NCBI GenBank assembly: GCA_016125225.1
Contig: WGME01000003.1
Span: 682,001-746,000, forward strand
Reading direction: 5' to 3'
From: a bacterium
GTDB taxonomy: Bacteria; Planctomycetota; Planctomycetia; Planctomycetales; Planctomycetaceae
DNA: 64,000 nucleotides
Shown here: piece after piece, positions 45,675 to 62,602 of the stretch
Layout: every line of letters begins with the position of its first letter
Position numbering within the stretch: the first letter of the stretch is position 1
Translations under genes and position numbers: made by a program
Notes under the pieces: model-generated
Databases searched by the model: none
Told to the model about the DNA's origin: nothing
What the model saw: the letters and a program-made list of their open reading frames with translations, nothing else

Positions 45675-46327
45675 GGGCAGCGGTGCAAATGGCCCGCATC
45701 TTAATCGGAACCGTCAGGGAATGTGAGTTGATCCGCAACGGGTTCTCCTTCTCGCGAGTCATACGCTCACTCCATCCATCGATGGAGACACCCCGGTATT
45801 GCGTAGAAAACAATGGATCTCCAGGTAACGCATGAAGACATCAACATGTCAGCACGTGGCGGGAGGTAATTTTTCGTAGAGAATTCATGAAACGAAGAGA
45901 CTGATACGGCCAAGAGTTTCTTGAAGAACGATCCTTCGGGAAATCGCACAAGATTCTGACGAGCCTGTGAGATTTCCTGATGGCGTTCTGGTCTCACTGC
46001 CGTAATAATTGGCGATCATCACGGTCGCACTTTGACGCGGACCGTATCAGGGTATGCGGTTGGTCACGATGGCCAATGCTCGCATCCCACCGGAGTGTTC
46101 CCTTGAATTTCTGTCTGGTCGACGCCTCGGTGCGACCGTCTCGCTTGCCCGCGCGGCTCGGCAAAACAGTATGCCGTGTTGTGACCACATCACGCCTGGT
46201 TCCGCCAACCAGCGCCCGCGATCATCACGGCTTGGTCTAAAACGACGACTTGGTCCGTGTGATCTCTTCCCCCTGCCTGACTATGGTTTATCCGGCCTGA
46301 CACTTACGGGTGTCGCCTCCCGCTGCC
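45675..46327. other. intergenic, about 650 bp, divergent promoter region of the cyanophycin locus
   Basis: Separates the ABC exporter (minus) from the first cyanophycin synthetase (plus) and should hold both promoters, perhaps with shared regulation. Frames here (for example 46054-46404) overlap the synthetase and lack protein character. No strong hairpin is seen. Confidence 0.45.
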
Positions 46328-48958
46328 ATGAAGATTCTCTCCGTCCGTACCCTCCGTGGTCCCAACATCTGGTCGAGACGACCGGCACTCGAAGCCCTCG
46401 TTGACCTGCAATTGCTGCGCGATTCCTCGTCCGAAATTCTGCCCGAATTCAACGATCGACTCATGTCGTGGTTGCCGGGTTTGATCGAGCATCGCTGCAG
46501 TGAAGGCGTGCGCGGAGGCTTCCATATTCGTCTGCGACGCGGCACCTACCTCGCTCACATTCTCGAACACGTGACGATTGAATTGCAGACGCTGGCGGGT
46601 ACCGAAGTGGGTTACGGACGCGCCCGCGAAACGAGTTGTGAAGGCGTTTTTAAGGTCGTCGTCCGCTACGTTGAAGAAGAAGTCGGCAAAGCCTGTCTCA
46701 ATGTCGCTCATCGATTGTGTCTGGCCGCCGTGTACGATTTGCCCTTTGATATCGCCGCAGAAGTCCAGTCTCTGCGGGAATTGGTCGACCGGATTTGCCT
46801 GGGACCATCAACACGGGCCATCGTCGATGCCGCGCGAGACCGGCAGATTCCGGTACAACGGTTGAACGCCGGCAGCCTCGTTCAGTTGGGCTATGGGGCG
46901 AAACAACGCCGGATTTGGACGGCGGAAACCGATCAGACCAGCGCCATTGCCGAATCCATTGCCTCCGATAAAGAATTGACCAAATCGCTCTTAACATCGG
47001 CGGGAGTCCCTGTCCCCCAAGGCCGGGTGGTGACCGACGCGGAAGACGCGGTTTCCGCTGCGGACGATATCGACGGCAACGTCGTCGTCAAACCGATCGA
47101 TGCCAATCATGGCCGCGGCGTGTTCATGGATCTTCGGGAACCGGGACTGATTCGCACGGCCTACGAAGCCGCGGCGAAGGAAGGTTCCGGCGTGATTGTC
47201 GAGCAATACATTCCGGGCCATGAACACCGCTTACTGGTGATTGGTGGCAAGCTGATCGCAGCGGCCCGCGGTGAAGCCGCGTCCGTTGTGGGCGATGGGC
47301 TGCATACCATTAGTGAACTCGTCGATCTGCAGATCAACTCCGATCCGCGGCGGGGTGATGAAGAATCGTGCCCGCTCAACCCCGTTTTGCTCGATGCCCT
47401 GACGTTGACGGAATTGAGCAATCAGGGTTACCAGCCTGACCAGATTCTCGCGGATGGTACACGGGTGTTGGTCCGCCGGAATGACAATCTCAGTGAAGAT
47501 GTGACCGACATTGTCCATCCCTCCGTGGCCGAACATGCCGTGATTGCGGCGAGCGTGGTGGGGCTTGATATCGCCGGAATCGATCTGGTCGCCACCGACA
47601 TTTCGCGACCGCTGGAAGCTCAAGGCGGAGCGATTGTTGAAGTCAACGCCGGACCGGGACTGCTGCCCCATTTGCGTCCACGTGTCGGGCAGCCCCGTCC
47701 GGTGGGCAAAGCGATCGTCGAGACGCTGTTTCCAGCGGGGTCGACCGGCCGGATACCGATCGTGTCCGTAACCGGAACCAATGGCAAAACCACCACCACG
47801 CGACTAGTCGCTGCCCTGTTAGAGCGCGCCGGCTATCGCGTAGGTATGACCTGCAGCGATGGCATCTTCGTCGGCACAAGGCTGATTGATCAGGGAGACT
47901 GCGCTGGCCCGCAGAGTGCTCGCAAAGTCTTGATGAATCCGGCTGTCGAAGCGGCGGTCCTGGAATGTGCTCGTGGCGGCATCCTTCGTGAGGGTCTGGG
48001 CTTCGATCATTGTGACGTCGCGATCGTCACGAACATTAGAACGGCCGACCATCTCGGACAGCATGACTTACACACTCCCGCTGACATGTACAAGGTGAAG
48101 CGCACGCCCGTGGATGTTGTCCTGCCAACGGGGGTTGCAGTGCTGAATGCCGATGATCCGCTCGTAGCGCAGATGGCGGAATTGTCAGCCGGTGATGTCG
48201 TCTTCTTTGCCCGTGATGCGGAACATAGTGTCGTTCGCAAGCATCTGCTGGCAGGTCGGCGAGCAGTCACTGTAAGAAACGGGACCATATTGTTGTCTCA
48301 GGGTTTGCAAGAACATCCCTTAATGCCCATGGACCAGGTGCCCTGCACGCATGGTGGCCGCATCAACTTTCAAGTGGAGAATGTGCTGGCAGCGGTCGCG
48401 GCGGCATGGAGCCTGGGGATTCCCAACTCGGTTATGCAGATGACGTTGCAGAGTTTCCAGGGCAACCACATTGATAACCCGGGTCGCTTCACGGTCCTGG
48501 AGATTCAGAATCGCACGGTGATTGCCTTCGATGGACGAAACGCGTTGGCACTCCATTCGCTCATCGACGCCTGCCAGGCCTTTTCTCATCAACAGCGGTC
48601 CATCGTGTATTCCGGTGAGGGAGATCGTCGTGATGAGGATTTGATCACTCAGGGGCAACTTCTCGGTGACCATTTCGATGCAATTACCTTATGTGAAATC
48701 GATCGGCATGACCCGCGTCCTTCCGGAGACGTCATGCGTTTGCTTCAGCAGGGCCTGAACTCCGGAAGCCGCTTTGCACAATGCACCCTTCAAGCCGATT
48801 GGTCTCAGGCTGTCGACGCCGCATGGACTGAGTTACCACCTCGTGGCTTGCTGGTCATTCAAGCGGCGAGCATCACCCAGACGGTACAGAAACTTCAACA
48901 ACTGAGTGGCCATGAACCAACCGTGCCAACAGGACGAACCTTGCATGCCGTTGGTTAA
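46328..48958 (+). CDS. cyanophycin synthetase-like protein, divergent copy
   Basis: An 876-aa protein with the CphA layout: N-terminal domain (MKILSVRTLRGPN), ATP-grasp domain (about 215-480, VVVKPIDANHGRGV) and Mur-ligase-like domain with P-loop TGTNGKTTTTR (about 482). CphA builds the poly-Asp backbone with Arg side chains. This copy deviates at two conserved places: NAGPGLLPHLRPR where copy 2 has NAAPGLRMHLEPS, and FDGRN (about 733) where copy 2 has DYGHN. Its activity may be altered or regulatory. The ATG at 46328 is chosen because the conserved N-terminus begins there; a GTG at 46310 is also possible. Neither has a good ribosome site. Confidence 0.92.
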   Translation: MKILSVRTLRGPNIWSRRPALEALVDLQLLRDSSSEILPEFNDRLMSWLPGLIEHRCSEGVRGGFHIRLRRGTYLAHILEHVTIELQTLAGTEVGYGRARETSCEGVFKVVVRYVEEEVGKACLNVAHRLCLAAVYDLPFDIAAEVQSLRELVDRICLGPSTRAIVDAARDRQIPVQRLNAGSLVQLGYGAKQRRIWTAETDQTSAIAESIASDKELTKSLLTSAGVPVPQGRVVTDAEDAVSAADDIDGNVVVKPIDANHGRGVFMDLREPGLIRTAYEAAAKEGSGVIVEQYIPGHEHRLLVIGGKLIAAARGEAASVVGDGLHTISELVDLQINSDPRRGDEESCPLNPVLLDALTLTELSNQGYQPDQILADGTRVLVRRNDNLSEDVTDIVHPSVAEHAVIAASVVGLDIAGIDLVATDISRPLEAQGGAIVEVNAGPGLLPHLRPRVGQPRPVGKAIVETLFPAGSTGRIPIVSVTGTNGKTTTTRLVAALLERAGYRVGMTCSDGIFVGTRLIDQGDCAGPQSARKVLMNPAVEAAVLECARGGILREGLGFDHCDVAIVTNIRTADHLGQHDLHTPADMYKVKRTPVDVVLPTGVAVLNADDPLVAQMAELSAGDVVFFARDAEHSVVRKHLLAGRRAVTVRNGTILLSQGLQEHPLMPMDQVPCTHGGRINFQVENVLAAVAAAWSLGIPNSVMQMTLQSFQGNHIDNPGRFTVLEIQNRTVIAFDGRNALALHSLIDACQAFSHQQRSIVYSGEGDRRDEDLITQGQLLGDHFDAITLCEIDRHDPRPSGDVMRLLQQGLNSGSRFAQCTLQADWSQAVDAAWTELPPRGLLVIQAASITQTVQKLQQLSGHEPTVPTGRTLHAVG

Positions 48959-49142
48959 CACCTAAGACGAACAACAGGAATCCAATAACGATGAACGACT
49001 CGATCCGCTCTGGTGGAGAGCGTGCTCCTGGGAACAAAACTTCGGCCCCGCTTCGGCAAGGCTGGTAGTGAGCAGCAGACGGCTCGATAGCCGTCGTGAT
49101 GGGCGTCGGACATCGTCTTCGGAACGTCAAGAAAGAGAAATC

Positions 49143-51821
49143 ATGATCGTACGGAACGTGCGGGCACTGCGCGGACCGAACTTGCGAACCAAACAGACCG
49201 TTCTGGAAATTCAACTCGCCGCGCTGGCCGAGCTTCCAGAACTCCATCTGGCGATGGATCGCATTCCCGGGGCCATGCATGAAGCATCCATGATGCTCAC
49301 GGGAACTCATCTTGAAGAGACTGTCAGCAGTGACACGGCAGCACCAGACCTGATCCTCGCGAAATCGTTCTGCGAATTGGTTTGGGCCCTGCAACGCTTT
49401 GCCGGTGTTCCTGTAGAAATTGCTCAATGCGTGCCAAGCTCCCCTAAGGAAGGGTGTCTGGTCGTCGTGCAATACCGCGAAGAATCGACCGGACGCATGG
49501 CGGTCGATATCGCGGATCAGTGGTTACAAGCGGAACTGGTCGGCGCGGCCTACGATCTCATCGAAGCCGCCAGGACTCTGCGTGCTCATGACCAGAACGT
49601 TCGGTTAGGGCCCAGTACCGGAGCCATCGTGCGTGCCGCGGTTGAGCGAGGCATTCCCTATCGCCGCCTGAACGAACAGAGTCTCGTTCAACTCGGCTAT
49701 GGGTCGCGGCAACGGAAAATTCTGGCCGCAGAGACCGATCGAACCTCGGCCATTGCCGAGCAGATCGTGCAGGACAAGCAGCTCACCAAGAACCTGCTGC
49801 AGGCTGTCGGAGCCCCGGTCCCTCAAGGTCGTGAAGCCACGTCGGCGGAAGATGCGTGGGATGCGGCTTTGGAAATTGGTTTGCCTGTCGTGGTCAAACC
49901 CCGCGATGGCAGCCAGGGTCGCGGAGTCGCCGTGAACCTGATGACGTGTGCCTCGGTCAAGGCGGCCTATGAGAATGCCGCTACTCGCTATGAACACATT
50001 CTCGTCGAAGAGTACGCCCCCGGTGCCGATTACCGCTTGCTGATCATCGACAATAAGTTGGTGGCCGCCGCACGACGTGAACCCCCTCAGGTGACCGGGG
50101 ACGGGGTGCACTCGATCTCCGAATTGGTGCAGGATGTCAATCTCGATCCGCGACGAGGTGAAGACCATGCTACATCGCTGAGCAAGATTCCGCTCGATGC
50201 CATCGCCCTGGGAGTGTTGTCCGAACAGGGGCTGACCACCGACTCGATTCCCGCAGCCGGACAACTGGTACTGCTTCGCCGCAATGCCAACCTGAGCACC
50301 GGTGGTTCCGCAACCGATGTGACCGATCTGGTTCACCCGGAAGTGGCAGCCCGCGCCATCGATGCCGTGCGGATGGTGGGTCTCGATCTCGCTGGCGTCG
50401 ATGTGATCGCTCAAGATATCAGCCAACCACTCGAAGCGCAGCGGGGCAAGATCGTGGAAATCAACGCTGCGCCGGGGTTACGGATGCACCTGGAACCCTC
50501 GTATGGACAAGGTCGGCCTGTCGGCCAGGCGATCATCAATATGATGTTTCCCGGCGAAGCCACCGGGCGTATTCCCTTAGTCGCAGTGACGGGAGTGAAT
50601 GGCAAAACGACCACCACCCGGCTGACCGCACACATTCTGCGATGCTGGGGCAAACGGACCGGCATGACCTGTACCGACGGGGTTTACATCGACGATCGTC
50701 GCATCGATACCGGGGATTGCAGCGGGCCCCGGAGTGCTCGCCTGGTGCTGTCGAATCCCCTGGTCGATGCCGCCGTTCTCGAGACAGCGCGGGGCGGCAT
50801 GCTGCGGGAAGGGCTGGGATTTGACGCCGTCGATGTGGCCATCGTTACGAACATTGGAGAAGGTGACCATCTTGGCCTGAATGGCATCCATTCGCTGGAA
50901 CAACTGGCGAAGGTCAAGCGGATGATTGTCGAGAACGTGTTGCCCCAGGGCCACGCGGTCCTCAATCTCGACGATCCGCTGGTCATGGGTATGGCCGAAC
51001 ATTGCACGGGAAAAGTGCTGTTGTTTTCGCAGCAGGCACTTCATCCGCGATTGGTGGAACATCGTCAGCGCGGGGGCAAAGTGGTGTTCACGCGACAGGG
51101 TTCGTTATACGCCGCTGAAGGAGACTGGGAAGCCCGCATTGCCGATCTGTCGGCGATTCCCTTGACGATGGGCGGCCTGATTGGTTTCCAGGTCGAGAAT
51201 GCGATGGCTGCCGCCGCCGGTGCCTGGTCTCTGGGAGTCCCCTTCCAGACGATTCGCCATGCCCTGGAAACCTTTGTGAATTCTTCGACCACGGTTCCGG
51301 CGCGATTCAATGTGATTCGCAGCCGCGGAGCCACGGTCATTGTTGACTACGGACATAACACATCGGCTCTGCAAGCACTCCTCGAAGCCTTTGGCCAGTT
51401 GCCGCATGAACGTCGCTTGATTGTTTACACCGCCGCGGGTGATCGTCGTGACGAGGACATCGTCCGGCAGGCCGAGATGATTGCCGATGGCTTTGACCAT
51501 TGGGTGATGTATGAAGATGCCTGCACGCGTGGTCGGCAGGATGGCGACGTCATCCGGTTAATGAAACAGGGACTCACCGCAGCTCGGCGCTTGAAGTCGC
51601 ATGTGGAAACCCGCGGGGAATTCCGTGCGATTGCCATGGCTCTTGATCTGTTGCAACCGGGCGACTTATTGTTGATTCAGGCCGACCAGGTAGAGGAAGC
51701 GATTGTCTTTGTCGAACAGCATCTGCAGTCGGCCTTGCCTGCGAACGCATGGGATTCCGGAGAGATTCCGGCCCTGAAGCCCGAATGTGAACCGCATGCC
51801 CTGGGTGAGATGAAGCCGTAA
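49143..51821 (+). CDS. cphA: cyanophycin synthetase, canonical copy
   Basis: An 892-aa protein with N-terminal domain (MIVRNVRALRGPNLRTKQ), ATP-grasp (VVVKPRDGSQGRGV; NAAPGLRMHLEPS near 440) and Mur-ligase-like domain (TGVNGKTTTTR near 482; VDYGHNTSAL near 734). All motifs match characterised CphA1-type enzymes, which add Asp to the backbone and Arg to its side chain using ATP. It makes the nitrogen-storage polymer cyanophycin in the cytoplasm. It follows the divergent copy by 184 bp on the same strand. ATG 49143 is preferred over 49068 because AAAGAG precedes it and the conserved start follows. Confidence 0.94.
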   Translation: MIVRNVRALRGPNLRTKQTVLEIQLAALAELPELHLAMDRIPGAMHEASMMLTGTHLEETVSSDTAAPDLILAKSFCELVWALQRFAGVPVEIAQCVPSSPKEGCLVVVQYREESTGRMAVDIADQWLQAELVGAAYDLIEAARTLRAHDQNVRLGPSTGAIVRAAVERGIPYRRLNEQSLVQLGYGSRQRKILAAETDRTSAIAEQIVQDKQLTKNLLQAVGAPVPQGREATSAEDAWDAALEIGLPVVVKPRDGSQGRGVAVNLMTCASVKAAYENAATRYEHILVEEYAPGADYRLLIIDNKLVAAARREPPQVTGDGVHSISELVQDVNLDPRRGEDHATSLSKIPLDAIALGVLSEQGLTTDSIPAAGQLVLLRRNANLSTGGSATDVTDLVHPEVAARAIDAVRMVGLDLAGVDVIAQDISQPLEAQRGKIVEINAAPGLRMHLEPSYGQGRPVGQAIINMMFPGEATGRIPLVAVTGVNGKTTTTRLTAHILRCWGKRTGMTCTDGVYIDDRRIDTGDCSGPRSARLVLSNPLVDAAVLETARGGMLREGLGFDAVDVAIVTNIGEGDHLGLNGIHSLEQLAKVKRMIVENVLPQGHAVLNLDDPLVMGMAEHCTGKVLLFSQQALHPRLVEHRQRGGKVVFTRQGSLYAAEGDWEARIADLSAIPLTMGGLIGFQVENAMAAAAGAWSLGVPFQTIRHALETFVNSSTTVPARFNVIRSRGATVIVDYGHNTSALQALLEAFGQLPHERRLIVYTAAGDRRDEDIVRQAEMIADGFDHWVMYEDACTRGRQDGDVIRLMKQGLTAARRLKSHVETRGEFRAIAMALDLLQPGDLLLIQADQVEEAIVFVEQHLQSALPANAWDSGEIPALKPECEPHALGEMKP

Positions 51822-51871: not shown

Positions 51872-52339
51872 ATGGCCCCAGCGATCGAGTTTCGACACGA
51901 TGCTTACGGGCGGTTTCTCTTTGTGACCCCGGAGCATCCGGAGGGCCAAGAAGTGGAACCCGTATGGGCCTTTCCGTGGTCCGCCCGCGAGCACCATCTG
52001 GTTCTCATCGATCCACAGGGGCATCCCGTAGCGGCATTTGCAGACGCGAACGATCTTCCAGAGGCGGCACGTCTGCAACTGCAACTGGAATCGGCTCAAC
52101 GGGAGTTCCTACCGTGTCTGGAGCGGATTCGCAGTGTTTCCGGGCCGTTCCCCCCCTGTCTCTGGGAAGTGGATACCGATCGCGGGCCGACCGCAATTGA
52201 TCTTGAAAGCGAAGAAGATGTACGGAAGCTGAATGATCAGTCGGCGCTGGTTACCGATAGCTCCGGTCTCCGCTTTTTGATTGCCAACACCGCAGACCTG
52301 GACAGCGTCAGTCGTGGTTATCTGCGGCGGTATCTCTGA
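51872..52339 (+). CDS. DUF1854 family protein
   Basis: A 155-aa soluble protein (begins MAPAIEFRHDAYGRFLFVTP; contains WAFPWSAREHHLVLIDPQG and VDTDRGPTAIDLESEEDVRKL). This matches the DUF1854 family, which I recall as repeatedly linked to cyanophycin synthesis genes and the composite ABC exporter. It is 50 bp after cphA on the same strand and likely co-transcribed. The biochemical role is unknown; its strand-rich N-terminal half and small size would suit a binding or regulatory partner of the exporter or the synthetase. It converges on the 1337-aa gene with 23 bp between stops. Confidence 0.88.
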   Translation: MAPAIEFRHDAYGRFLFVTPEHPEGQEVEPVWAFPWSAREHHLVLIDPQGHPVAAFADANDLPEAARLQLQLESAQREFLPCLERIRSVSGPFPPCLWEVDTDRGPTAIDLESEEDVRKLNDQSALVTDSSGLRFLIANTADLDSVSRGYLRRYL

Positions 52340-52362: not shown

Positions 52363-55300
52363 TTACGTATTCCGACGGCGGGGGGAAAGCGGATCTTTCC
52401 ATTGTTTGATTTGCTGCCGCATCTCTCGCAGGTTGAGATTGCACGGCGGCAGCGGCAGTTCCGGTTCGAACTCCGGCGATTGCCAACGATCATCTTCCCG
52501 CTGCACTTTATTGAGTTCATCTTCCAATGAACGCAGCCACGGCGGCACATCGAGTCCCGAACCGGATGTCGTTTTCAGATAGTCTTCGCAAAGTTCCTGC
52601 AACCGCCGGAAAGCGGGCGGATCGGCTGATGTCACGGGGTTAGATTTCTTCTTTCCCTTGGTTTTCGCGGGTTTCTCCGGGGCGTCGGTTTGCCAGCGAA
52701 ACTCTTCGCAGGCGGCCCCCATGAGGGCAATCATCTTGTTCACCGTGAGGGGCTTCACGAAGCGCTCGTGCAGATGATTGGTCACTGATGGCAAACGCAT
52801 GCCGTACTTGCGTTCCAGCTTTTCGAGATCGGCCAGATGCCGGGCCGCCATGTCTTCCGTTTTGATGGTGAAGACATCCTCCCAGATCTGTGCCGCATCT
52901 TCCTTATGGCACCGCGACAACACTTCATGCGCCAATGCGACCGGCAGAAGATTCCACGAATCCCGGTCGTAAGACGTCTCCAGCCGCAGAAAATCGAGCA
53001 GGCTGTAGAACGATTCGCCATAGTCCGATTGGGTCGTTGTCGAGTTGTATTCCAGAAAACGGTCGTAACGCTCGACAACAATCTGATAGATCAGGCTGAG
53101 TTGTTCGATGACCAGTTCGCGATCAATGCGCTCTTCTTCCAGGTCTTCGAGCAGTCGAGACGGATGCAGCGGGTCTTCGTTTTCGGCGAGATAACCCAGA
53201 AACGCATCGACGTTCTGGTGGAGTATCGCACGGACATTGCCCAATGTCAGCTGGCGGGCATGGAAGAGTTCGCCGCCATAGGTTTTGATAAACCGCTGCG
53301 TCTCTTCCCAGACGGTATCGAGTTTCAATGCCTCAACCGTAGAGAGTCGCATCGAAGAACTATGGTCGAGCCATTGATCGAGATAGAGTTCAACGACCGT
53401 TCCCACGAGTTCAATCAGGTCTTCATCCGAGAACTTCCCAGCTTTCCACCGCGTGGAAGCCTGCACGATGGCTTCCAACGTGCTTTTGATGGCAATGCGA
53501 AACAGGCGGTCGAATTCGGTCACCGCCATGCCTTGAGGCCGCGAAGCCCGCTCCATCTGATGGGCGGTCCGCAGCAGATGCCATGTTTCCCGTAACAGGC
53601 CGAGCTGTGGCAAGTATTTCAGCAGGCGTCGCATCAGCGATTGAATCGATCGGGCGGCGAGAATCTGCTCGGGTTCCCCACCATGATCTAAGGGGACATA
53701 CAGCAATGGCTGCTTGCGGAGGGCCTTCTGCAATTGCGGCAACTGCTTGCGAACTTCGGTGGCATCAGCAGCATGGAGTGGCCGTAAAACCGCGATGATG
53801 GCCTGATCCAGGGCATCGCCATTGGCCTCTTCGGTTGATGCGTGTGGAATCGCTGCCTGCAAAGACCATTCCGCGGCGCGAAACGTCACGATCGTGTTGA
53901 GCGTGGTCTGCAACAGGTAGAGCTTGGTCTGCAACTGCGCATCGTATTCGACATTCGAATCGTGATCGCCCGGCGGAGCCGACAGTTCTCGCTGCCACAG
54001 ATCACCCGCCAGCTTGCGGAGTTCCCGCTGGACGGTTTTGGTGCGGTCGAGCCAGTTCTGCAGGTAGGGGGTTCGCTCTTCGACTGGCGTTTGCGCATGG
54101 GCACTGAGAGCCGCGGCGGTTTGCCAGAGTTGCGCGAGCATCCGCAGGAATTGCAGACGCGGTTCGAGCCAGCGTTCAAACTCCTCGAACTCCCCGGCAT
54201 CGGGCAAGCCCCCCCGGTCGTCCATTGTTTCGCCGAAGGTGCCATCATCGGCACTGTCGCGAAAGACGACGCCCTCGTAAGCCGCGCCGAACAATCCATG
54301 TTCGCCTTCGTCCTCTTCGTCGCTCTCCGGACCCGTCGTTTGTGCTGATGTCCCTACACCAACGAATTCGGTGAGCCGAGGCACCTGCCAGAAGTCGCCG
54401 GCATTGGCTTCGAGATAATCGAACATGCGTCGCAAGGATGGCCAGGGATCGCGGAGTTGCCCCTGCTCATCCGAGAGTTCTTCCGTGCGTGGTTGGCCGA
54501 CTTCGGTGATGTCGCCGATCAGTTCCATGCAGCGCATTAGGAGACGGTCAAAAGGCATTGGCCCCGCTTGCAGGCCCACTTCGTCCGCCTGGCTGAGCCA
54601 TTGCATCAACAAGCCCATCGATGCCACGACATCGCGACGGTCCAACAGGGCTGAGACCACCTGGGCATAGGCCTTAGATGACTGGAACTCGACGACATGA
54701 TCACGCCAGAAGGCGATATTCCCGGATGCCTCCCCGGCCGCACGCCACTCGGCGAGGGCTTTGGCCACGCGTCGGGCCGATTCGAGATGGTCTGCCCCAG
54801 ACACCGGTGGCAGATCTTCCACGGTCGTGGAACCAAAGCGGTCCCAGAAGTTAGCGAACCGCTCAAACTTTGCGAGGATCTCTGCTTCCGAAGCCGATTC
54901 CGCGCGAGCCGCGGCTTCTTCCAAGGCACGTGAATACCCTTCCAGAAGCCCTTCGACCAGTTGCAACAACACTTCGACCCGGTGATCGGGCACGCTGTCT
55001 TCTCGATTGGTGAAGAGCGGATATTGTCCCTGAAAGCCCAAGATGTTCCACGGATCGACCAGCGCACCACATTCGATACCGCGGTGCAGATAGTCTTCCG
55101 CTTCGCTCAGCAATCGGACGGCGTCGGCCACCTGCCCCCGGTCGAGAGCCCGCGTAGTCGCCGAGATCCGCCATTGCACTTCGCATTCGAAACGGGCCGA
55201 CGCACAGGGAATCACCGCGGCTTGACGACGTGCGGCATCGGAGTAGGCCATCCGGGCGAAGAGGTACGCCAGATGCCGTCGCTGTACCTGCTGCGTGCCA

Positions 55301-56376
55301 TATTGGGCAAGATAGAAATTCAAATGCTGGCGGACATGACCAAAGGGTTGCTGCGTCGTTTTAGCATGTTTCTGCAGACGTTTGGCCCGGGCTCCGGTGG
55401 AAGCCTTCAGTAACCAGTCGTAAAACGCATCGCGCTGCCGGGCGACTTTGGGCAAAAGCGATGTCAGCGACACCGTGGAGTCATAGGTATCGGGGCCCGC
55501 CCCGCTGATGGCCGAAGCCATTAGAATCGTTCCGCCGAGAACCGCAGCGGCATCGAACAGAACTTCTTCCGTGGGGACTCGCTTCTGCAGATCAATCCAT
55601 GTCAACAGGGCATCGAGAATCACCTTGCGGATGATGAAGCGGCGATAGCGGCCCTTGAGATCAATAACGTGCGGGTCCCATTCGCCGAACAGGTAGTTTG
55701 TACGTTTGTTGGCCGGATGCAGATGGTCATGGGCCCGCGGATCGAGAGCCAGTTCGTCGAGTTGATCGAGATCAAAATAGGCATCGGCCAGGAGTTCGTC
55801 GGGCATCGCTCGGAGTAATTCCAAGGCCCGCGAGATGACTTCGGCATACGGGCCGGACGAAATGCCAGCCCCATTGAGGAATAACGGAAACGGGCGGAAG
55901 CGTTCATGCTCATACGGTTCCATCCGCCGATCGTTTTCGAGCACGGCCACGGGGCGATAGCCGACAAAATCGTTCAGTCGATCGAGGACGCCAGCCACAA
56001 TTCGCGGCGTATCATCCCACGGTCCGCCCTGTTCCAGAATCGCTTCCCAGATGCGGACGAGGAAGTACGGATGTTGAAAGTCCTGGTCTTCCAGATGAAA
56101 CAAGAGATCGCGATGAAATTCGCGATAGGCCGGCAAGACATTTTGATAGGCCAGATCGATGGCCGCTTCCGCCTGGGTACTGTCGTGGAACGCGGGTGCT
56201 TCCGCCGTGAGCGTTGCCAGTGACTGCTTCAGCATCTCCGGCAATTGATTCCAGCCGACCCGGGTGACAAGGTCATTGACGAGTCGCTGAAAGGCGGGGT
56301 CTGGCCGTCCACCTGAGAAATTCAGGTAGCCCAGTACTTCGCGCGCCGCAGCGATGTCCTCAGTGCGAAATTTCAA
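52363..56376 (-). CDS. giant cytoplasmic helical protein (1337 aa), unknown
   Basis: The longest gene in the window, with a TTG start at 56376. There is no signal peptide and no membrane span. The sequence is mostly alpha-helical with many aromatic/Leu helices, like a repeat scaffold, and contains an acidic disordered stretch (ESDEEDEGEHG, near 690) and a Lys-rich linker (KPAKTKGKKKSN, near 1250). No nucleotide-binding or catalytic motif is recognisable. It is divergent from the proton-channel operon (352 bp apart), which hints at a shared function, and it converges on the cyanophycin locus. Possible roles are a scaffold or a cytoplasmic effector for the channel, but this is inference. Confidence 0.88.
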   Translation of the reverse strand: MKFRTEDIAAAREVLGYLNFSGGRPDPAFQRLVNDLVTRVGWNQLPEMLKQSLATLTAEAPAFHDSTQAEAAIDLAYQNVLPAYREFHRDLLFHLEDQDFQHPYFLVRIWEAILEQGGPWDDTPRIVAGVLDRLNDFVGYRPVAVLENDRRMEPYEHERFRPFPLFLNGAGISSGPYAEVISRALELLRAMPDELLADAYFDLDQLDELALDPRAHDHLHPANKRTNYLFGEWDPHVIDLKGRYRRFIIRKVILDALLTWIDLQKRVPTEEVLFDAAAVLGGTILMASAISGAGPDTYDSTVSLTSLLPKVARQRDAFYDWLLKASTGARAKRLQKHAKTTQQPFGHVRQHLNFYLAQYGTQQVQRRHLAYLFARMAYSDAARRQAAVIPCASARFECEVQWRISATTRALDRGQVADAVRLLSEAEDYLHRGIECGALVDPWNILGFQGQYPLFTNREDSVPDHRVEVLLQLVEGLLEGYSRALEEAAARAESASEAEILAKFERFANFWDRFGSTTVEDLPPVSGADHLESARRVAKALAEWRAAGEASGNIAFWRDHVVEFQSSKAYAQVVSALLDRRDVVASMGLLMQWLSQADEVGLQAGPMPFDRLLMRCMELIGDITEVGQPRTEELSDEQGQLRDPWPSLRRMFDYLEANAGDFWQVPRLTEFVGVGTSAQTTGPESDEEDEGEHGLFGAAYEGVVFRDSADDGTFGETMDDRGGLPDAGEFEEFERWLEPRLQFLRMLAQLWQTAAALSAHAQTPVEERTPYLQNWLDRTKTVQRELRKLAGDLWQRELSAPPGDHDSNVEYDAQLQTKLYLLQTTLNTIVTFRAAEWSLQAAIPHASTEEANGDALDQAIIAVLRPLHAADATEVRKQLPQLQKALRKQPLLYVPLDHGGEPEQILAARSIQSLMRRLLKYLPQLGLLRETWHLLRTAHQMERASRPQGMAVTEFDRLFRIAIKSTLEAIVQASTRWKAGKFSDEDLIELVGTVVELYLDQWLDHSSSMRLSTVEALKLDTVWEETQRFIKTYGGELFHARQLTLGNVRAILHQNVDAFLGYLAENEDPLHPSRLLEDLEEERIDRELVIEQLSLIYQIVVERYDRFLEYNSTTTQSDYGESFYSLLDFLRLETSYDRDSWNLLPVALAHEVLSRCHKEDAAQIWEDVFTIKTEDMAARHLADLEKLERKYGMRLPSVTNHLHERFVKPLTVNKMIALMGAACEEFRWQTDAPEKPAKTKGKKKSNPVTSADPPAFRRLQELCEDYLKTTSGSGLDVPPWLRSLEDELNKVQREDDRWQSPEFEPELPLPPCNLNLREMRQQIKQWKDPLSPRRRNT

Positions 56377-56728
56377 CGTCCGTGTTCCATCAATTCAAAA
56401 GGACGGGCAACCAGATCTAGGCAAACTCCCGGCCGCTGTGCTATGGACTGCGTCGCGCAGCCGGGAACCGCCAGCATACGAAGAAGCCTTGCCGCTTCGC
56501 AAATGGTTGGCGAATAACGTTCTTAGGTGCGGGGAGGCGGGATCGTAAGTGATCTTGCGAAATCTGCCTGTCCTGTTTGTGAGGAAGCGGTCTGGACTGA
56601 TTTTCGGTCGTAGACATTGCCGATTATATCGACGGTACGGAATCTGCCGTGCTTAAGGTCCGTGGTTCCGACACCGTCGTCCCTGCGAAACAATGGCTGT
56701 AACTCATTCTCCAACAGGAGCTTCCGGT
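56377..56728. other. intergenic, 352 bp, divergent promoters of the channel module
   Basis: Separates the 1337-aa gene from the MotA/TolQ-like gene and should hold both promoters. The last 36 bp are an in-frame upstream extension of the channel gene that I judge untranslated. I see no clear operator or hairpin. Confidence 0.4.
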
Positions 56729-58192
56729 ATGCCGGACACCCTGAAATCCAGCAAAGAACGTCGTCCGGCTCGGAGTTTGTCTCGGGCCTGGGGATGGCCG
56801 CTCGGGCTCGCCGTCACTTTCGCATTCTACGCAGTTATTCCGTATGCGCCATTCTTCCAGGCGGAATTGCAACGGTATTTCTGTGCTCACTGGATTGAGT
56901 ACGCCACCACCGGGCTGTTTTTCATCGGCTTGGCGACGCTCTTCGTCAAAGCCTGCCACCTCCCTGCGGAACGCCGGGCGTTGGCGGGCGGTCTGCTCGA
57001 CGGGCTGGATGTTAACGCAACGGGCTCGCCATTGCATACGGTGGAACGGATTACTACCCATGTGCATCTCGTGGCTCGGCAGCAAATGGACACGCACCTG
57101 GTCCGCCGGGTTCTCGACGTCTGCGATTATGTTCGCAGCCGCCGATCAATTGAAGGTCTGGAAAGCCAGCTCAGCTATCTCGCCGACCTGGCAGCCACGC
57201 GGTTGCATAGCAGTTACGCCCTGGTGCGGACGGTCACTTGGGCCGTACCCATCCTGGGGTTCCTCGGCACCGTGATCGGGATCACGATGTCGATTGCGAA
57301 CATTACGCCCGATCAACTGGAGTCTTCGCTGGGTGATGTCACGGCGGGACTAGCCGTCGCGTTCGATACCACGGCTTTGTCACTGACCTTGTCGATGATT
57401 CTGGTCTTCAACACCTTCATGGTAGACCGTCAGGAACAGCAGATTCTGGATGAGGTCGAAGACTTCTCCATGCAGAAACTTGTTGCATTGTTCCCGGCGG
57501 CGGAAACCATGGCCGAGCACCCGTTGCTGGTCGCAGAACAACAGGCCGCCGACCAGTTGCTGCAGAAGACCGAGTCGCTGGTGAGCTGGCAGATGGAGGC
57601 CTGGAAGGATTCGCTCGATGGTCTCCGCGATCGTTGGGCCGCGACACTGGATCAGCAGCAACAATCGCTCGACATGGCCTTGCAGTCGGGTTTGACTGCG
57701 GCTCTCACCGATCACGCTCAACAATTATCAGCGGCCCGGCACGACTTTGTCTCGGCCTTCGGGCAGGCCGCTGAGTCGATGCGAGATCAACTGACTGTGA
57801 CGCAAAACGCCCTACATCAGCATCATGTCGAAAACCTGACCCAGATGCAGGACGTCTGGCAAGGCGTGCGACAAGATCTGCTCGCCGTTTCTGCAGAACA
57901 GGCGGAACAATGGGACCGCACGCGTCTGCAATCGCATGAAGACCTGACCGCCTGGCAGTCGGCCTTACAGGAGGCCACTCAGGCCATGACAAGCCAACTT
58001 TTAGAACTGCGACAACAGGGTGAAACGTTACTCAAGCTGACCGAGCAGGAAGAGCAACTGGTGCGGTTGGAAGAGCGGCTGGCCCAGAATATCGAGACGG
58101 TTCGTATGGTCGATGCGCTGGATGAAACGCTGTTGAATCTGAATGCCGCTGTCAATCTGCTTTCCGCCAGAACCCGTAATAAAGCGGCGTGA
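56729..58192 (+). CDS. MotA/TolQ/ExbB-like proton channel with long cytoplasmic tail
   Basis: A 487-aa membrane protein. Four spans are visible: about 21-43, 56-74, 172-193 and 207-233. The last two carry the MotA/TolQ/ExbB signature (AVPILGFLGTVIGITMSIAN; AGLAVAFDTTALSLTLSMIL). Residues 234-487 are a Gln/Leu/Ala-rich coiled coil (LDQQQQSLDMALQSGL, LRQQGETLLKLTEQEEQL). Such proteins form pentameric proton channels that drive work in the envelope; a long tail is also a trait of ZorA, although ordinary TolQ lacks it. Start 56729 has AGGAG 8 nt upstream, better than 56693. It is first in a three-gene run with two partner subunits. Confidence 0.92.
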   Translation: MPDTLKSSKERRPARSLSRAWGWPLGLAVTFAFYAVIPYAPFFQAELQRYFCAHWIEYATTGLFFIGLATLFVKACHLPAERRALAGGLLDGLDVNATGSPLHTVERITTHVHLVARQQMDTHLVRRVLDVCDYVRSRRSIEGLESQLSYLADLAATRLHSSYALVRTVTWAVPILGFLGTVIGITMSIANITPDQLESSLGDVTAGLAVAFDTTALSLTLSMILVFNTFMVDRQEQQILDEVEDFSMQKLVALFPAAETMAEHPLLVAEQQAADQLLQKTESLVSWQMEAWKDSLDGLRDRWAATLDQQQQSLDMALQSGLTAALTDHAQQLSAARHDFVSAFGQAAESMRDQLTVTQNALHQHHVENLTQMQDVWQGVRQDLLAVSAEQAEQWDRTRLQSHEDLTAWQSALQEATQAMTSQLLELRQQGETLLKLTEQEEQLVRLEERLAQNIETVRMVDALDETLLNLNAAVNLLSARTRNKAA

Positions 58193-58248
58193 AGCAGAGT
58201 CAAAGGTTTCCGCTTCTGGTCCCTTGATCTCGAACACGGTCTGGCCCC

Positions 58249-60342
58249 ATGGCTCGTCGCCAACAGCAGTCCACCACCGTCGAACTCTTTCCCTTTCTCG
58301 CAGTCCTTGTCTGCGTGATGGGGGCGTTGATCTTTCTGCTACTGGTGATGACGAAGCGGCTGCGTGCCGCTGCTGTAGCGAAAGCTCAGGCGGCGGTGAC
58401 TCAAGCCTACGATGACCGTCCGATTCTACCCGAGTTGGTGGAAGACGATGTGGAAGACTTTGCGCCGTCTCCGGCCGTGCTGTCACCCGATCTGGCTGCG
58501 GTGCCGATTGATGAACCCGTGGGTTGGTCGGCTGCCCCTGCAGTAAAAAAACCGGAAGAACCAGCGGTCGATCGGCAGGCCCACTATGCGGCACTGGATG
58601 CCCTGCAACAGCAATGGACGACCAAGGTGGCGTCGCTGGAAGCCGATGTGGACCAAAGACAGGCCGCTTTGAACCGACAACGCCTGCTGCTGATGACCAC
58701 CGAACGGCAAACCACCGAACTCAAGCAACAGTTGTTGCAAAAGGAAACCGAACTGGCCGCCATGATGGGCCGCATTTCGGCGACGCAGGGGTCGCAATCG
58801 GCCACATCCGCTGAACAAGCCAAGCTCGAACGCGTCATTCAACAACTTCGTCAGCAACTCAAGCAGTTGGCAGAACAGCAAGAAGCCGCCAGCAGTCAAT
58901 ACGCCATCGTGCCCTATGATGGGAAATCGGGCACCACGCGCCGTCCGATTCTGATTGAATGTACCGCCACCGGCCTGAAATTCCTGCCGGAAGATGTCAC
59001 GCTGACTCCGGCGGACATCGAAGGCTTCACGCCGCGATTTAATCCCCTGTTGTCGGGTGCGGCTGCCCTCACCAGCTACTGGTCGCAGCAACCTCCATCG
59101 TCGGGGGATGCTCCGGCGGAACCCTACGTGCTTCTGATTGTCCGACCTGATGGGACGCTCGCTTATTACATCGCCATGAAACTGCTCTCGGGGATGAAGC
59201 AGCCACACGGCTACGAACTCGTGACCGATGACATGTCGCTCCAACTTTCACCGATTGACCCCAATGCGAAGGCCGCTCTCGAAGCGGCCATTGAACAAAC
59301 ACTTGCCGAACGCCAACGCATGGTCCAGGCAATGTCGTCTGGCACGGGACTGGGACGTGGCAACGGCGGGGGACAGGGAACTGGCAACGAGGTTGGCGGC
59401 GGATCGGGTTTTGGATCGGGCCGCGGTGGCCGAGATTCCAGCACATACAATGGTGGCGGAAGCGGGGGCCGGTTAGGCGGGGCTGATGCCGCACCCAAAG
59501 GGAACAGTCGCGGCGAATTTGCATTGTCCGACATCGAAGACTCCGAGCAGGTCGGCAATCGCAGTTGGGAAGATGTCGATCGATTTGAAGGCCAGGAATT
59601 CCGCAAGCGAAGAGAATCGGGCGGGTCAACGGGCGGAACGAACTCCCAGTCAGCACCGAACGGAACGAGCCAGAATCGTTCCCAGGGATCGCCCTCTGCT
59701 TCAGTGACGGGGCAAGGTTCTCAATCGCCGCGATCCGACACCACTTCCGAAGCCACCGCTAAGTCATCTACGGGACGTCCACCGACAACGGGACAACCTG
59801 CCTCGAATAATGGCCAGTGGCAACCCCGTTCCGGAAGCACAGGGGGACAAACCGCGGGAAGCTCAGGGTCATCGGCGACGGGCAGTCCCGATGAAAGCGA
59901 GGAAGATTACCCGAACTTCAATCAGTCGGCATCGCGCCGCAAAGGCCAGGCCGCCAAATCGCTTCCCTATGAACATCTGCAGCAGCGCAAATGGGGACCG
60001 CACGAGCCGGGGGCCACGATCGGCCTGGAAAAGCCTGTCCGTGTGCGAGTTGAAGCGGAACGCATGGTCATCGAGCAGACGTTGGCAATCCCCGTTACAG
60101 CCGGCGCCTCACGCGAGCAGTTGTTTAATCAACTCCTGTCGGCCGTGGATCAGCAGTCTCAGGGTTGGGGACAACCGGGTTCCGGTTTCTTCTGGGTTCC
60201 CAGTTTACGCTTTGAAGTGCTACCGGGTGGCAATACCGCTTATGAACGCGTAGTCCCGCTGGTCAGCAAGTGCGGATTGTCGCATCGCACGGAATACTCG
60301 CTCGGTCAGACGGCTGCCGAGTTGCCGGAGGCCAAACGATGA
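58249..60342 (+). CDS. single-span ExbD/MotB-like partner, 697 aa, no membrane aspartate
   Basis: One N-terminal span (ELFPFLAVLVCVMGALIFLLLVM, about 12-34) without Asp, then a linker, a coiled coil (about 115-215), domain copy 1 (about 228-330, with RPILIECTATGLKF and VRPDGTLAYY), a Gly/Ser/Gln-rich disordered stretch (about 375-570) and domain copy 2 (about 590-697, with KPVRVRVEAERMVI and VLPGGNTAYE). The topology puts the body outside the cytoplasm. It starts 56 bp after the channel gene and ends overlapping the next start by ATGA, so translation is coupled. ExbD/TolR/MotB proteins normally need an Asp in the span; its absence suggests a structural half of a heterodimer. Confidence 0.85.
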   Translation: MARRQQQSTTVELFPFLAVLVCVMGALIFLLLVMTKRLRAAAVAKAQAAVTQAYDDRPILPELVEDDVEDFAPSPAVLSPDLAAVPIDEPVGWSAAPAVKKPEEPAVDRQAHYAALDALQQQWTTKVASLEADVDQRQAALNRQRLLLMTTERQTTELKQQLLQKETELAAMMGRISATQGSQSATSAEQAKLERVIQQLRQQLKQLAEQQEAASSQYAIVPYDGKSGTTRRPILIECTATGLKFLPEDVTLTPADIEGFTPRFNPLLSGAAALTSYWSQQPPSSGDAPAEPYVLLIVRPDGTLAYYIAMKLLSGMKQPHGYELVTDDMSLQLSPIDPNAKAALEAAIEQTLAERQRMVQAMSSGTGLGRGNGGGQGTGNEVGGGSGFGSGRGGRDSSTYNGGGSGGRLGGADAAPKGNSRGEFALSDIEDSEQVGNRSWEDVDRFEGQEFRKRRESGGSTGGTNSQSAPNGTSQNRSQGSPSASVTGQGSQSPRSDTTSEATAKSSTGRPPTTGQPASNNGQWQPRSGSTGGQTAGSSGSSATGSPDESEEDYPNFNQSASRRKGQAAKSLPYEHLQQRKWGPHEPGATIGLEKPVRVRVEAERMVIEQTLAIPVTAGASREQLFNQLLSAVDQQSQGWGQPGSGFFWVPSLRFEVLPGGNTAYERVVPLVSKCGLSHRTEYSLGQTAAELPEAKR

Positions 60343-61487
60343 GCCGACGACCGCAGGCCGATCAACAATTCGGATCAGATTCGTTCCTCGACATCGTGTG
60401 CAATGTCGTGGGCATTCTGATCATTCTGATGGTCGTGGCCGGAGTCCGCGCCAGTCACGACCCAGTGTCGTTGCCGGTTCTCAGCCTTCCAGACAACGAC
60501 GAACCTCGGATTGTCACCGCACCAGCGATTGAAGAGGAATTGCCGCCTCCTCCGCCGATGCCCATCCCCATGTCACCGGTCCCTGTGATTGAGCCGGAGC
60601 TGCCAGCTCTGCCCGAGATTCCCGCCGAGCCTTTGCCACCGCTGGAACCCTCACCGGAACTGGTGGCTGCGGCCGAACAACTGGCACGCGAACTCGCTGG
60701 TATGGACGATAAGGAACGCACCCTGCAGCAGCAACTGGCGAACAATCGCCGGCAGCAACAGGAGTTGGAGGACCGGCTGCAGACGTTGTCTAAACAGCAG
60801 GCCAGCCAGGCCGCGGGCTTGCAGGCCGCAGAACAGCAACGTCAGGCCACCGCTCAAGAACTGGAACAACTGCGTCGCATCGCGGCTCAACTGTCACAAC
60901 TGGTGCGAGAGCGGGCCAGTGAAGCTCCGGCCGCAAAAACGCTGGAGCATCGCATTACTCCGATTGGTCAGGCGGTCACCGGAAAAGAATTGCACTTCAG
61001 AGTACTCGAAGATCGCATTTCCGTCGTGCCACTCGAACGGCTGATTGAACGACTGAAAAACCAGATCGACCGCCATAAGGAATGGATCGCCAAATCGCGG
61101 CAACAACTCGGACAGGTCGGCCCGGTGGAAGGTTACGCCCTGCACTATGTCGTGCAACGTGAGTCAGCTTCGGTGGTTGACGAATTGCGAATGGGGCCCG
61201 GGGTCTTCCGCATCAATGTCACCGAATGGCGGGTGGAAGCTGAGCGCGATGTCGAAACCGAGTCCTCCGCCGAGGCTCTGCGTCCGGGATCACGATTCCT
61301 GTCGGCCATCGCCACTGCGGAACCCGGGGCAACGTTGACCTTCTGGGTCTATCCCGACAGCTTCAATGCCTATACGGAGGTTAAGGCGTACTGCCAGCAA
61401 CAAAACTTCCTCATTGCCGGGCGTCCCCTGCCAACGGGAATTCCGATTGCAGGCAGCCCGAATGGCACCCGGTCCACTGGCCAGTAA
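60339..61487 (+). CDS. single-span ExbD/MotB-like partner, 382 aa, with membrane aspartate
   Basis: N-terminus SDSFLDIVCNVVGILIILMVVAG carries an Asp at the start of the only span, as in ExbD, TolR and MotB, so this subunit should be the proton-relay one. It is followed by a proline-rich stretch (about 60-110), a coiled coil (about 115-200) and a C-terminal domain (about 210-360) with ELHFRVLEDRISVV and FWVYPDSFNAYTE that matches the pattern of the repeated domain in the upstream subunit. No OmpA-like peptidoglycan-binding motif is seen. The start overlaps the previous stop (ATGA), with GGAGG upstream. A strong terminator lies 4 bp after the stop. Confidence 0.88.
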   Translation: MSRRPQADQQFGSDSFLDIVCNVVGILIILMVVAGVRASHDPVSLPVLSLPDNDEPRIVTAPAIEEELPPPPPMPIPMSPVPVIEPELPALPEIPAEPLPPLEPSPELVAAAEQLARELAGMDDKERTLQQQLANNRRQQQELEDRLQTLSKQQASQAAGLQAAEQQRQATAQELEQLRRIAAQLSQLVRERASEAPAAKTLEHRITPIGQAVTGKELHFRVLEDRISVVPLERLIERLKNQIDRHKEWIAKSRQQLGQVGPVEGYALHYVVQRESASVVDELRMGPGVFRINVTEWRVEAERDVETESSAEALRPGSRFLSAIATAEPGATLTFWVYPDSFNAYTEVKAYCQQQNFLIAGRPLPTGIPIAGSPNGTRSTGQ

Positions 61488-61490
61488 GCC

Positions 61491-61515
61491 GATTCTCAAA
61501 ATCGAGAATCTTTTT
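61491..61515 (+). terminator. rho-independent terminator of the channel operon
   Basis: GATTCTC (61491-61497) pairs perfectly with GAGAATC (61504-61510) around a 6-nt loop and is followed directly by TTTTT. It lies 4 bp after the stop of the last channel subunit, which marks the end of the operon and separates the sigma-factor gene. Confidence 0.82.
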
Positions 61516-61597
61516 CTGCTGCCGTTAATGCCAGAAAGAGCCTGCGGTTCCCCTCACGGTCACTGTCAGTCAGTCTGATCGTGTGAGGGAATCATCG

Positions 61598-62602
61598 ATG
61601 GTGGGCACAAGGAGCTCCGTTCGAAGTCCGGCGAGCAACAGTCGTCGGAATTCGCAATCGGAAAAAGAGATAAGTCAAACATCTTCTCAGCCCCAACGCA
61701 CTCAGGAGCAGTTACGAGCGCTCGCCGAGGAACTGGTTGTGACGGAGATTTCCTTCGTCGACCATATGCAGTTCCGTCGTAAGTCAGCGGAGCGGTGGAT
61801 TGATGAACAGCAGCCAGCAAAGTCAGTTTCGGAAGTTCGGGGCACGAACTCCTCCATCGGACTGGCCTTCGTCTCCGGACTGGTGCAAGCCCCTCTGCTC
61901 AAACCCGCTGAGGAATCGTATCTCTTTCTCCGAATGAACTTTGTGAAATATCGGGCCGAGCAACTTCGCCGCCGGATTAATTGCCAGCGTCCCGATGCCG
62001 CGCAGCTCGATCAGATTCAGGTGTGGTTGACGGAGGCCGCCGCATTACGGAATCGCATCGTCGAAGCCAACCTGAGACTGGTAGTTTCCGTGGCGTCAAA
62101 ACTGAGTCGGTCACTCGATCAACTATCGGAGCTGACCAGCGAAGGGTTATTGCCATTGATGCGGGCGGTGGAACTTTTCGATGTGCAACTGGGGTTTCGG
62201 TTCAGCACCTATGCGACCTGGGCCATTCGCAACCAAATCCATCGCTGTTTGAAACGTCAGCGCGGCCCGAGTGAGCTACTGCGGTTCGGTGATGACTCGG
62301 ATTGGAACCACATCCCTGACCGCCGTGGTTCCGGAACCCGTGATCTCCAACTTCAGCAGCAACGGGAAGAACTGCTGTCGGAATTGATCGGTACACTAAA
62401 CCCCCGCGAGCGGACGATTATTGCGGCCCGCTTTGGACTCGATGGTCAACCAGCCGGACAAAGCCTCGCGGAGATTTCCGTTGTTCTGGGATTGAGCAAG
62501 GAACGTGTCAGACAACTTGCCTTAGGGGCACTGGAAAAACTGCGGGAACAGGCCACACATACCGCGATTGAACTTCCAGAAGCCTGGAGAGCGGAAGCCT
62601 GA
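61598..62602 (+). CDS. sigma-70 family RNA polymerase sigma factor
   Basis: A 334-aa sigma factor. Region 2 is clear (RNRIVEANLRLVVSVASKL, LTSEGLLPLMRAVELF, FSTYATWAIRNQI), as is region 4 (LNPRERTIIAARFGLDG ... LAEISVVLGLSKERVRQLALGALEKLR). Region 3 is short and region 1.1 is replaced by a Ser/Arg/Gln-rich tail and a helical stretch (about 1-100). Size and motifs place it in group 2/3 (stress or alternative), not ECF. ATG 61598 has GAGGGA 7 nt upstream. It follows the terminator of the channel operon, so a direct link is not shown. No anti-sigma gene is adjacent. Confidence 0.93.
   Translation: MVGTRSSVRSPASNSRRNSQSEKEISQTSSQPQRTQEQLRALAEELVVTEISFVDHMQFRRKSAERWIDEQQPAKSVSEVRGTNSSIGLAFVSGLVQAPLLKPAEESYLFLRMNFVKYRAEQLRRRINCQRPDAAQLDQIQVWLTEAAALRNRIVEANLRLVVSVASKLSRSLDQLSELTSEGLLPLMRAVELFDVQLGFRFSTYATWAIRNQIHRCLKRQRGPSELLRFGDDSDWNHIPDRRGSGTRDLQLQQQREELLSELIGTLNPRERTIIAARFGLDGQPAGQSLAEISVVLGLSKERVRQLALGALEKLREQATHTAIELPEAWRAEA

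Follow-up and report, generated by a model that had tools for sequence, protein, structure and literature searches.

Three adjacent genes on the forward strand of this planctomycete genome encode a MotA/TolQ/ExbB-type channel protein (A) and two unlike single-span partners (B1 and B2). The three proteins probably form an ExbBD/TolQR-like motor of 5:1:1 composition with a heterodimeric B1:B2 axle, and we put the probability of this reading at roughly 0.6. This variant is shared by the Planctomycetaceae and by related families within their class. The gene layout, its conservation, the pattern of pore residues, the co-variation of arm lengths, and the predicted domain folds were observed, and we infer the 5:1:1 assembly, the proton path, and rotation.

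In the window, which is the whole 64,000-nt stretch of DNA that was analyzed, the A gene (499 aa) occupies 56693..58192 (+) and was assigned from PF01618, hydropathy, and homologues beside B1-B2. The second in-frame ATG of this open reading frame, at 56729, is an alternative start. B1 (697 aa; 58249..60342, +) has a membrane helix, a coiled-coil arm, and two ExbD/TolR-like domains with a Gly-rich linker between them, while B2 (382 aa; 60339..61487, +) has a membrane helix, a coiled-coil arm, and a single alpha/beta domain. These assignments come from the open reading frames, homologues, and structure models m4e965f2a01b3 (B1) and m84106344f7fe (B2). All three genes run in the same direction. 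A sequence-only reading of this DNA, which began A at 56729, had described a MotA/TolQ/ExbB-like channel followed by two unlike single-span partners, and Pfam, hydropathy, and the models confirmed that layout. It had also called the genes translationally coupled. The ATG of B2 (60339) overlaps the TGA of B1 as ATGA and has GGAGG upstream, so coupling is supported for B1-B2 but not for A-B1, where the gap is 56 nt. Just after the B2 stop, a pattern scan found a terminator-like hairpin followed by a T run (61491..61510, +), such sites being no commoner than in shuffled sequence. A sigma-70-type factor with regions 2 and 4 lies past this site, directly downstream on the same strand (61583-62602). 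Elsewhere in the window, two large tandem Mur-ligase/ATP-grasp genes, cyanophycin-synthetase-like, were seen at 46310-51821, with a DUF1854 gene next to them (51872-52339).

The A subunit scored 45.9 bits against the Pfam MotA_ExbB model (PF01618; cut-off 22.9) and fell below both equivalog models, with 33 bits for TolQ (221 required) and 22 bits for ExbB (206 required). Four membrane helices were predicted from its hydropathy; two of the hydrophobic regions precede residue 92, and the others span residues 184-202 and 220-244. T193, T226, and T227 are conserved in alignment A3. Thr193 (GFLGTV; 57269..57271, +), which is invariant in that alignment, lies in the first pore helix and would be a pore threonine by analogy to ExbB and TolQ. 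Asp225-Thr226-Thr227 (AFDTTA; 57365..57373, +) has an unusual Asp before the pore threonines. This Asp is conserved in A; the same position is Asn in an alternative A type and Trp in one ExbB of the same genome. The cytoplasmic tail (57431..58189, +) is probably helical, judging by composition, hydropathy, and weak similarity to ZorA tails. Leu, Gln, Ala, and Glu are abundant in it, and Pro occurs only twice. The length given earlier for this tail, about 250 residues, was correct (253 residues). Its description as a coiled coil is plausible, although a simple heptad-period test was not significant, since 302 of 1000 shuffles reached the observed value.

B1 and B2 each contain exactly one hydrophobic helix, at residues 16-34 by hydropathy, and it is helical in the models as well. 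The B1 helix (58294..58350, +) has the motif LFPFLA, with Ala18 (58300-58302) where ExbD/TolR-type proteins have Asp. The B2 helix (60384..60440, +) has the motif SFLD, and its Asp18 (60390-60392), invariant in alignment A4, is the likely proton-carrying residue. The two helices align with each other, FLA of B1 falling on FLD of B2 (E 8.8e-5). Coiled-coil arms were predicted in the models for residues 109-213 of B1 (58573..58887, +) and residues 106-194 of B2 (60654..60920, +; m84106344f7fe). In B1, a TolR-like periplasmic domain 1 (residues 233-324; 58945..59220, +) is followed by a Gly/Ser/Asn/Gln-rich linker (residues 371-568; 59359..59952, +), predicted to be disordered from a pLDDT under 50, and an ExbD-like periplasmic domain 2 (residues 591-683; 60019..60297, +). 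Domain 1 matched the TolR periplasmic domain 5by4 with a Z of 6.2 over 84 of 105 residues, and domain 2 matched ExbD 8p9r with a Z of 6.5 over 71 of 74 residues at 20% identity; Z scores near 6.5 are middling and unrelated folds score alike, but the aligned regions take in most or all of each target domain, and a B subunit would be expected to belong to this family. The structures 8vgd, 8pek, and 8vgc also matched domain 2. The two domains are related to each other by a profile match (97.3% probability, E 2.7e-11). Neither B1 nor B2 matched PF02472 (ExbD) in Pfam. Profile comparison with the ExbDs of this genome was merely marginal for B1 domain 2 (E 0.006) and gave nothing for B1 domain 1 or B2; thus, the link between B1 and ExbD rests on the structure match. 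The C-terminal alpha/beta domain of B2 (residues 217-372; 60987..61454, +) was modeled with a pLDDT mostly over 90. Its fold search returned only general RNase H/S11-like arrangements (Z ~6), with no clear match and no ExbD/TolR-like match listed. A segment of 36 residues toward the end of this domain matched B1 domain 2 (E 3e-4). No OmpA-like or peptidoglycan-binding domain was matched by Pfam in either protein.

A synteny survey of planctomycete genomes showed that the arrangement is conserved. Within the family, 158 of 170 genomes carry B2, or 126 of 130 when only good genomes are counted, and A is usually linked to the B1-B2 pair. Among 59 relatives, B2 was found in 52 and B1 in 53. The two genes are neighbors in the relatives analyzed, and they overlap by the same 4 nt at 42 of 78 loci. 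A lies upstream of the pair in 51 loci and downstream in 8. The other 19, among them some short contigs, have no A on the stretch. Strong matches in a phylum-wide sample were limited to the same class, and named records with the module include Schlesneria, Gimesia, Thalassoglobus, Planctomicrobium, and Fuerstiella. Chance can be dismissed as the source of the arrangement, because most of the class examined retains the B1-B2 pair. No conserved neighbor able to act as a partner was found in the neighborhood of the trio. The sole frequent neighbor is a gene for a 1337-aa protein (52363-56376, minus strand in the window), which had no Pfam, NCBIfam, or PADLOC match. It adjoins the trio in 36 of 125 loci, often divergently transcribed, and it is present in most class genomes searched, including those lacking B1-B2, and absent from family f2. 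This protein was rejected as an obligate partner because it also occurs in f3 genomes, which have neither B1 nor B2.

The predicted pore is asymmetric, with Asp in B2 (SFLD), Ala in B1 (LFPFLA), and an extra Asp in A (FDTT), a combination that appears to be new here. The loss of Asp from B1 and its gain in A escaped the sequence-only reading and are the more unusual feature. The Asp is present in each of the eight ExbDs of this genome. In some genomes A is replaced, often downstream of B2, by a second type (A', AFNTT) that is ~26-32% identical to it. Residue pairs were counted over deduplicated linked trios. A-Asp was accompanied by a B1 lacking Asp (Ala or Thr) in 73 trios, and A'-Asn was accompanied by B1-Asp in 11, which are all 11 of the linked Asn type. 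A-Gly with B1-Ala was seen twice and A-Asp with B1-Asp once. One trio had a degraded A that has lost Thr193, together with B1-Asp, and that genome also has an intact A'. Within one genus the switch is recent, as closely related B2 proteins stand beside either A and B1-Ala or A' and B1-Asp: at L226, L227, and L290, A is upstream and B1 has Ala, and at L220, L221, L223, L229, L231, L253, and L289, A' is downstream and B1 has Asp. Locus L295 has an intact A upstream and a decayed A' remnant downstream of B1-B2 (L295:797-979, L295:4340-5659), so an ancestor of that genus probably had both A types. At L298:2225-5146, the membrane helix of B1 is nearly identical to that of B2, Asp included, as if copied, and this genome has A'.

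Exceptions to this pattern were also found. An unlinked A' occurs with B1-Ala in 4 distinct cases from 3 lineages, the paralogous zinc-ribbon class of one lineage combines A-Asn with B1-Ser, and two deep lineages combine A-Glu with Asp in both B1 and B2. A tree-based test of the link between A position 225 and B1 position 18 had 3 informative independent pairs, all in the expected direction, which are too few for significance (p 0.25). The co-variation of A type and B1 residue is a strong pattern and not a proven rule. Since the residue at the B1 pore position changes with the type of A linked to it, B1 probably lies opposite A inside the pore.

Two sets of relatives show related pore motifs. 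The paralogous A-B1-B2 module (L163, L165, L168-L171, L179, L326, L328, L329, L331, L337-L342, L345, L351, and L353) has an N-terminal zinc-ribbon on A in most copies. Its B1 has LFPFLS, with Ser at the Asp position, and its B2 has a SLLDTMTNVVG-type motif with Asp, so an Asp-less protein is again paired with an Asp-bearing one. In family f2 (L172-L175, L177, and L178), a distant A relative has AFDST, and just one short B, with SGEDSFVAVVVTKLTGALLFIL, comes after it. Ala replaces the Asp in this short B, whose helix also contains a Lys; the acid would be in A only. The A relative is paired with its own short B in most f2 genomes. The f2 genomes also have B1 and B2 without a linked A, and the pore motifs of both proteins are lost.

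The absence of Asp from B1 could instead mean that a B2 homodimer alone is the axle and that B1 is a TolA/TonB-like force transducer outside the A ring. A disordered linker of 200 residues and an end domain resembling ExbD would suit such a protein, and peripheral transducers beside TolQR-like genes in PVC bacteria are described in a recent paper (PMC12204202). However, the B1 helix aligns with the pore helix of B2, B1 has Asp at exactly this pore residue in loci linked to the other A type, and in L298 the B1 helix has been replaced by a B2-like one. The folded domains of B1 are themselves ExbD/TolR-like, one of them directly following the coiled coil, and the arms of B1 and B2 are matched in length. 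We therefore consider a transducer role for B1 unlikely.

To compare arm lengths, each arm was taken to start at the pore residue and to end at the first strand of its periplasmic domain. With this landmark-to-landmark measure, which was chosen after its results and those for P/G-free run length were both known, mean arm length was 201 for B1 and 199 for B2, with a median difference of 0 (IQR -3 to 9). The two arms were correlated over 69 distinct loci (Spearman 0.79). Phylogenetic contrasts on the B2 end-domain tree gave an r of 0.378 (p 0.0014), with a rank correlation of 0.61 and a sign test of 43:18 (p 0.002). A control length in B1 was uncorrelated with either arm, and P/G-free run length, used as a coiled-coil measure, showed no correlation. 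Sister-pair and outlier-free tests agreed, in a set that holds some genomes twice, and the length of A, in a test without tree correction, showed a weak correlation with both arms. A stalk in which the two arms run parallel and side by side would produce such matched, co-varying lengths, although B1 and B2 homodimers reaching the same periplasmic target would produce them as well.

Such homodimers would build separate motors, A5-B1x2 and A5-B2x2, with the B1x2 version either non-conducting or driven by the Asp of A. Homodimers are the rule in solved motors, and for AglQ and AglS, two B proteins of a Myxococcus motor, it is not known which dimers form (PMC9389320). A has its own Asp, and the f2 relative of A with Asp adjoins a single Asp-less B, which also speaks for this arrangement. 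Against it, the gene overlap favors equal amounts of B1 and B2, the pair is kept together in the relatives analyzed, and the arm lengths co-vary pairwise. Separate homodimer motors seem improbable on this evidence. The suggestion of the sequence-only reading that two unlike B proteins occupy one pore is probable: the helices align, the B1 residue follows the A type, the arm lengths co-vary, and the f2 pore motifs were lost jointly. B1 and B2 thus probably share one pore in a heterodimeric axle.

It is far less probable that B1 and B2 are envelope proteins that merely adjoin A and lie outside the motor. G001, G002, and the G035 group have no A linked to B1-B2, and the f2 B1 and B2 persist without pore motifs, as this would predict. 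The pair nevertheless adjoins A in most genomes, switches of A type accompany switches of the B1 pore residue, and the B1 and B2 pore motifs disappeared jointly. A Zorya-like phage-defense motor is hardly credible, as the genes are near-universal and not a patchy island, and neither ZorB, ZorC, ZorD, or ZorE nor a peptidoglycan-binding domain in B1 or B2 was matched, which leaves only the 31 bits of A against the ZorA model and its nearest solved chain, the long-tailed MotA/TolQ/ExbB protein 8vvi (E 1.4e-6). The resemblance of the tail to ZorA noted earlier is real but weak, and nothing else of Zorya was found. Membership in Zorya was rejected on this basis, with a weak ZorA score alone and no ZorB/C/D/E among the six proteins scanned. 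The earlier statement that no OmpA-like domain and no ZorC/D/E partner is present held in Pfam and defense-model scans, and ZorB was absent too.

The claim that no described system has this composition did not stand. AglRQS, the proton-driven gliding and sporulation motor of Myxococcus xanthus, has one A and two unlike B proteins (PMC3169522, PMC9389320, PMC3858216). A 2025 paper describes TolQ-like genes with heterologous TolR pairs in PVC bacteria (PMC12204202). Three other ExbB operons of the same genome (L150, C27:73 kb; L151, C37:350 kb; L152, C32:136 kb) carry two, two, and three different ExbD genes, respectively, all with the Asp kept. The composition of the trio thus has precedents. 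For the lack of Asp in B1, the acid in A, and the exchange of one A type for another, no description was found in the literature searched.

Like the trio, AglRQS combines one MotA/TolQ/ExbB-type A with two different single-span B proteins from adjacent genes. AglQ (162 aa) and AglS (194 aa) match PF02472 and are both reported with Asp, whereas B1 of the trio lacks the Asp and neither B matches PF02472. The B proteins of the trio also differ in having long coiled-coil arms, and its A in having an Asp and a long tail. A heterodimer of the two B proteins is an explicit and open question for AglRQS (PMC9389320), and the matched arm lengths are independent evidence that here the two B proteins share a pore. 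The PVC system comes from the same phylum group and likewise has one TolQ-like and two unlike TolR-like genes, but the accessible part of its description gives neither an Asp-less B nor an Asp in A. No Pfam match to vWA or TPR, which are linked in that system, was found in the flanking genes scanned around the trio. With ExbB-ExbD and TolQ-TolR, the trio shares a PF01618 channel with pore threonines, a B2 that keeps the Asp, and B1 end domains that resemble the ExbD and TolR periplasmic domains. It differs from them in having two B proteins, one of them Asp-less, with arms of ~200 residues before the folded domain, and in having no linked TonB, TolA, or Pal. GldL has its key carboxylate, E49, in the A subunit, and GldM is described as a homodimer (PMC8986121). 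E49 resembles the role proposed for Asp225, and the trio had no GldL or GldM family match in Pfam or NCBIfam. Unlike in MotAB, no OmpA-like peptidoglycan-binding domain was matched in B1 or B2. Zorya ZorAB (PMC11890865) has a long cytoplasmic tail on A like the trio, which lacks the ZorB-type peptidoglycan-binding B and ZorC/D/E.

In the proposed motor, five copies of A would form a ring, and one B1 and one B2 would make up the axle in its pore, extending next to each other into the periplasm as a parallel stalk. Asp18 of B2, probably together with the Asp225 ring of A, would carry the protons, while B1, having lost its Asp, would be the passive or asymmetric half of the axle. The paired arms and the ExbD/TolR-like domains could pass torque or pulling on to the periplasm, where the two such domains of B1 and the B2 domain would meet the next partner, peptidoglycan or an outer-membrane component. 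In lineages where the other A type (Asn225) is linked, B1 has the Asp and the pore would be of the ordinary kind. On essentiality of the genes in Planctopirus limnophila, the main text of a study with transposon-insertion data from that species (PMC10632474) does not mention MotA, ExbB, or TolQ. We found no described role for the trio, which is near-universal in a family with unusual envelope biology. A Tol-like housekeeping transmission of force to the envelope is the likeliest role, though a weakly supported guess at less than even odds, made because almost every genome of the family has these genes and they have no fixed neighbor.

A more specific form of the 5:1:1 reading is possible, but we hold it with less than even confidence. 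The motor would be an obligate 5:1:1 rotary machine whose heterodimeric axle has one carboxylate, in B2, and whose ring has five, from Asp225 of each A, the proton-binding group having moved between half-axle and wheel in step with the switch of A type. In models of 5:2 ion-driven motors, the two axle helices are taken to be identical and their two Asp residues to act in turn. If true, an obligate 5:1:1 motor with a single-carboxylate axle would break the symmetry of two equal Asp residues that underlies the current 5:2 stepping models. A motor with one Asp-bearing and one Asp-less axle protein inside an acidic ring would show whether two equal carboxylates are needed.
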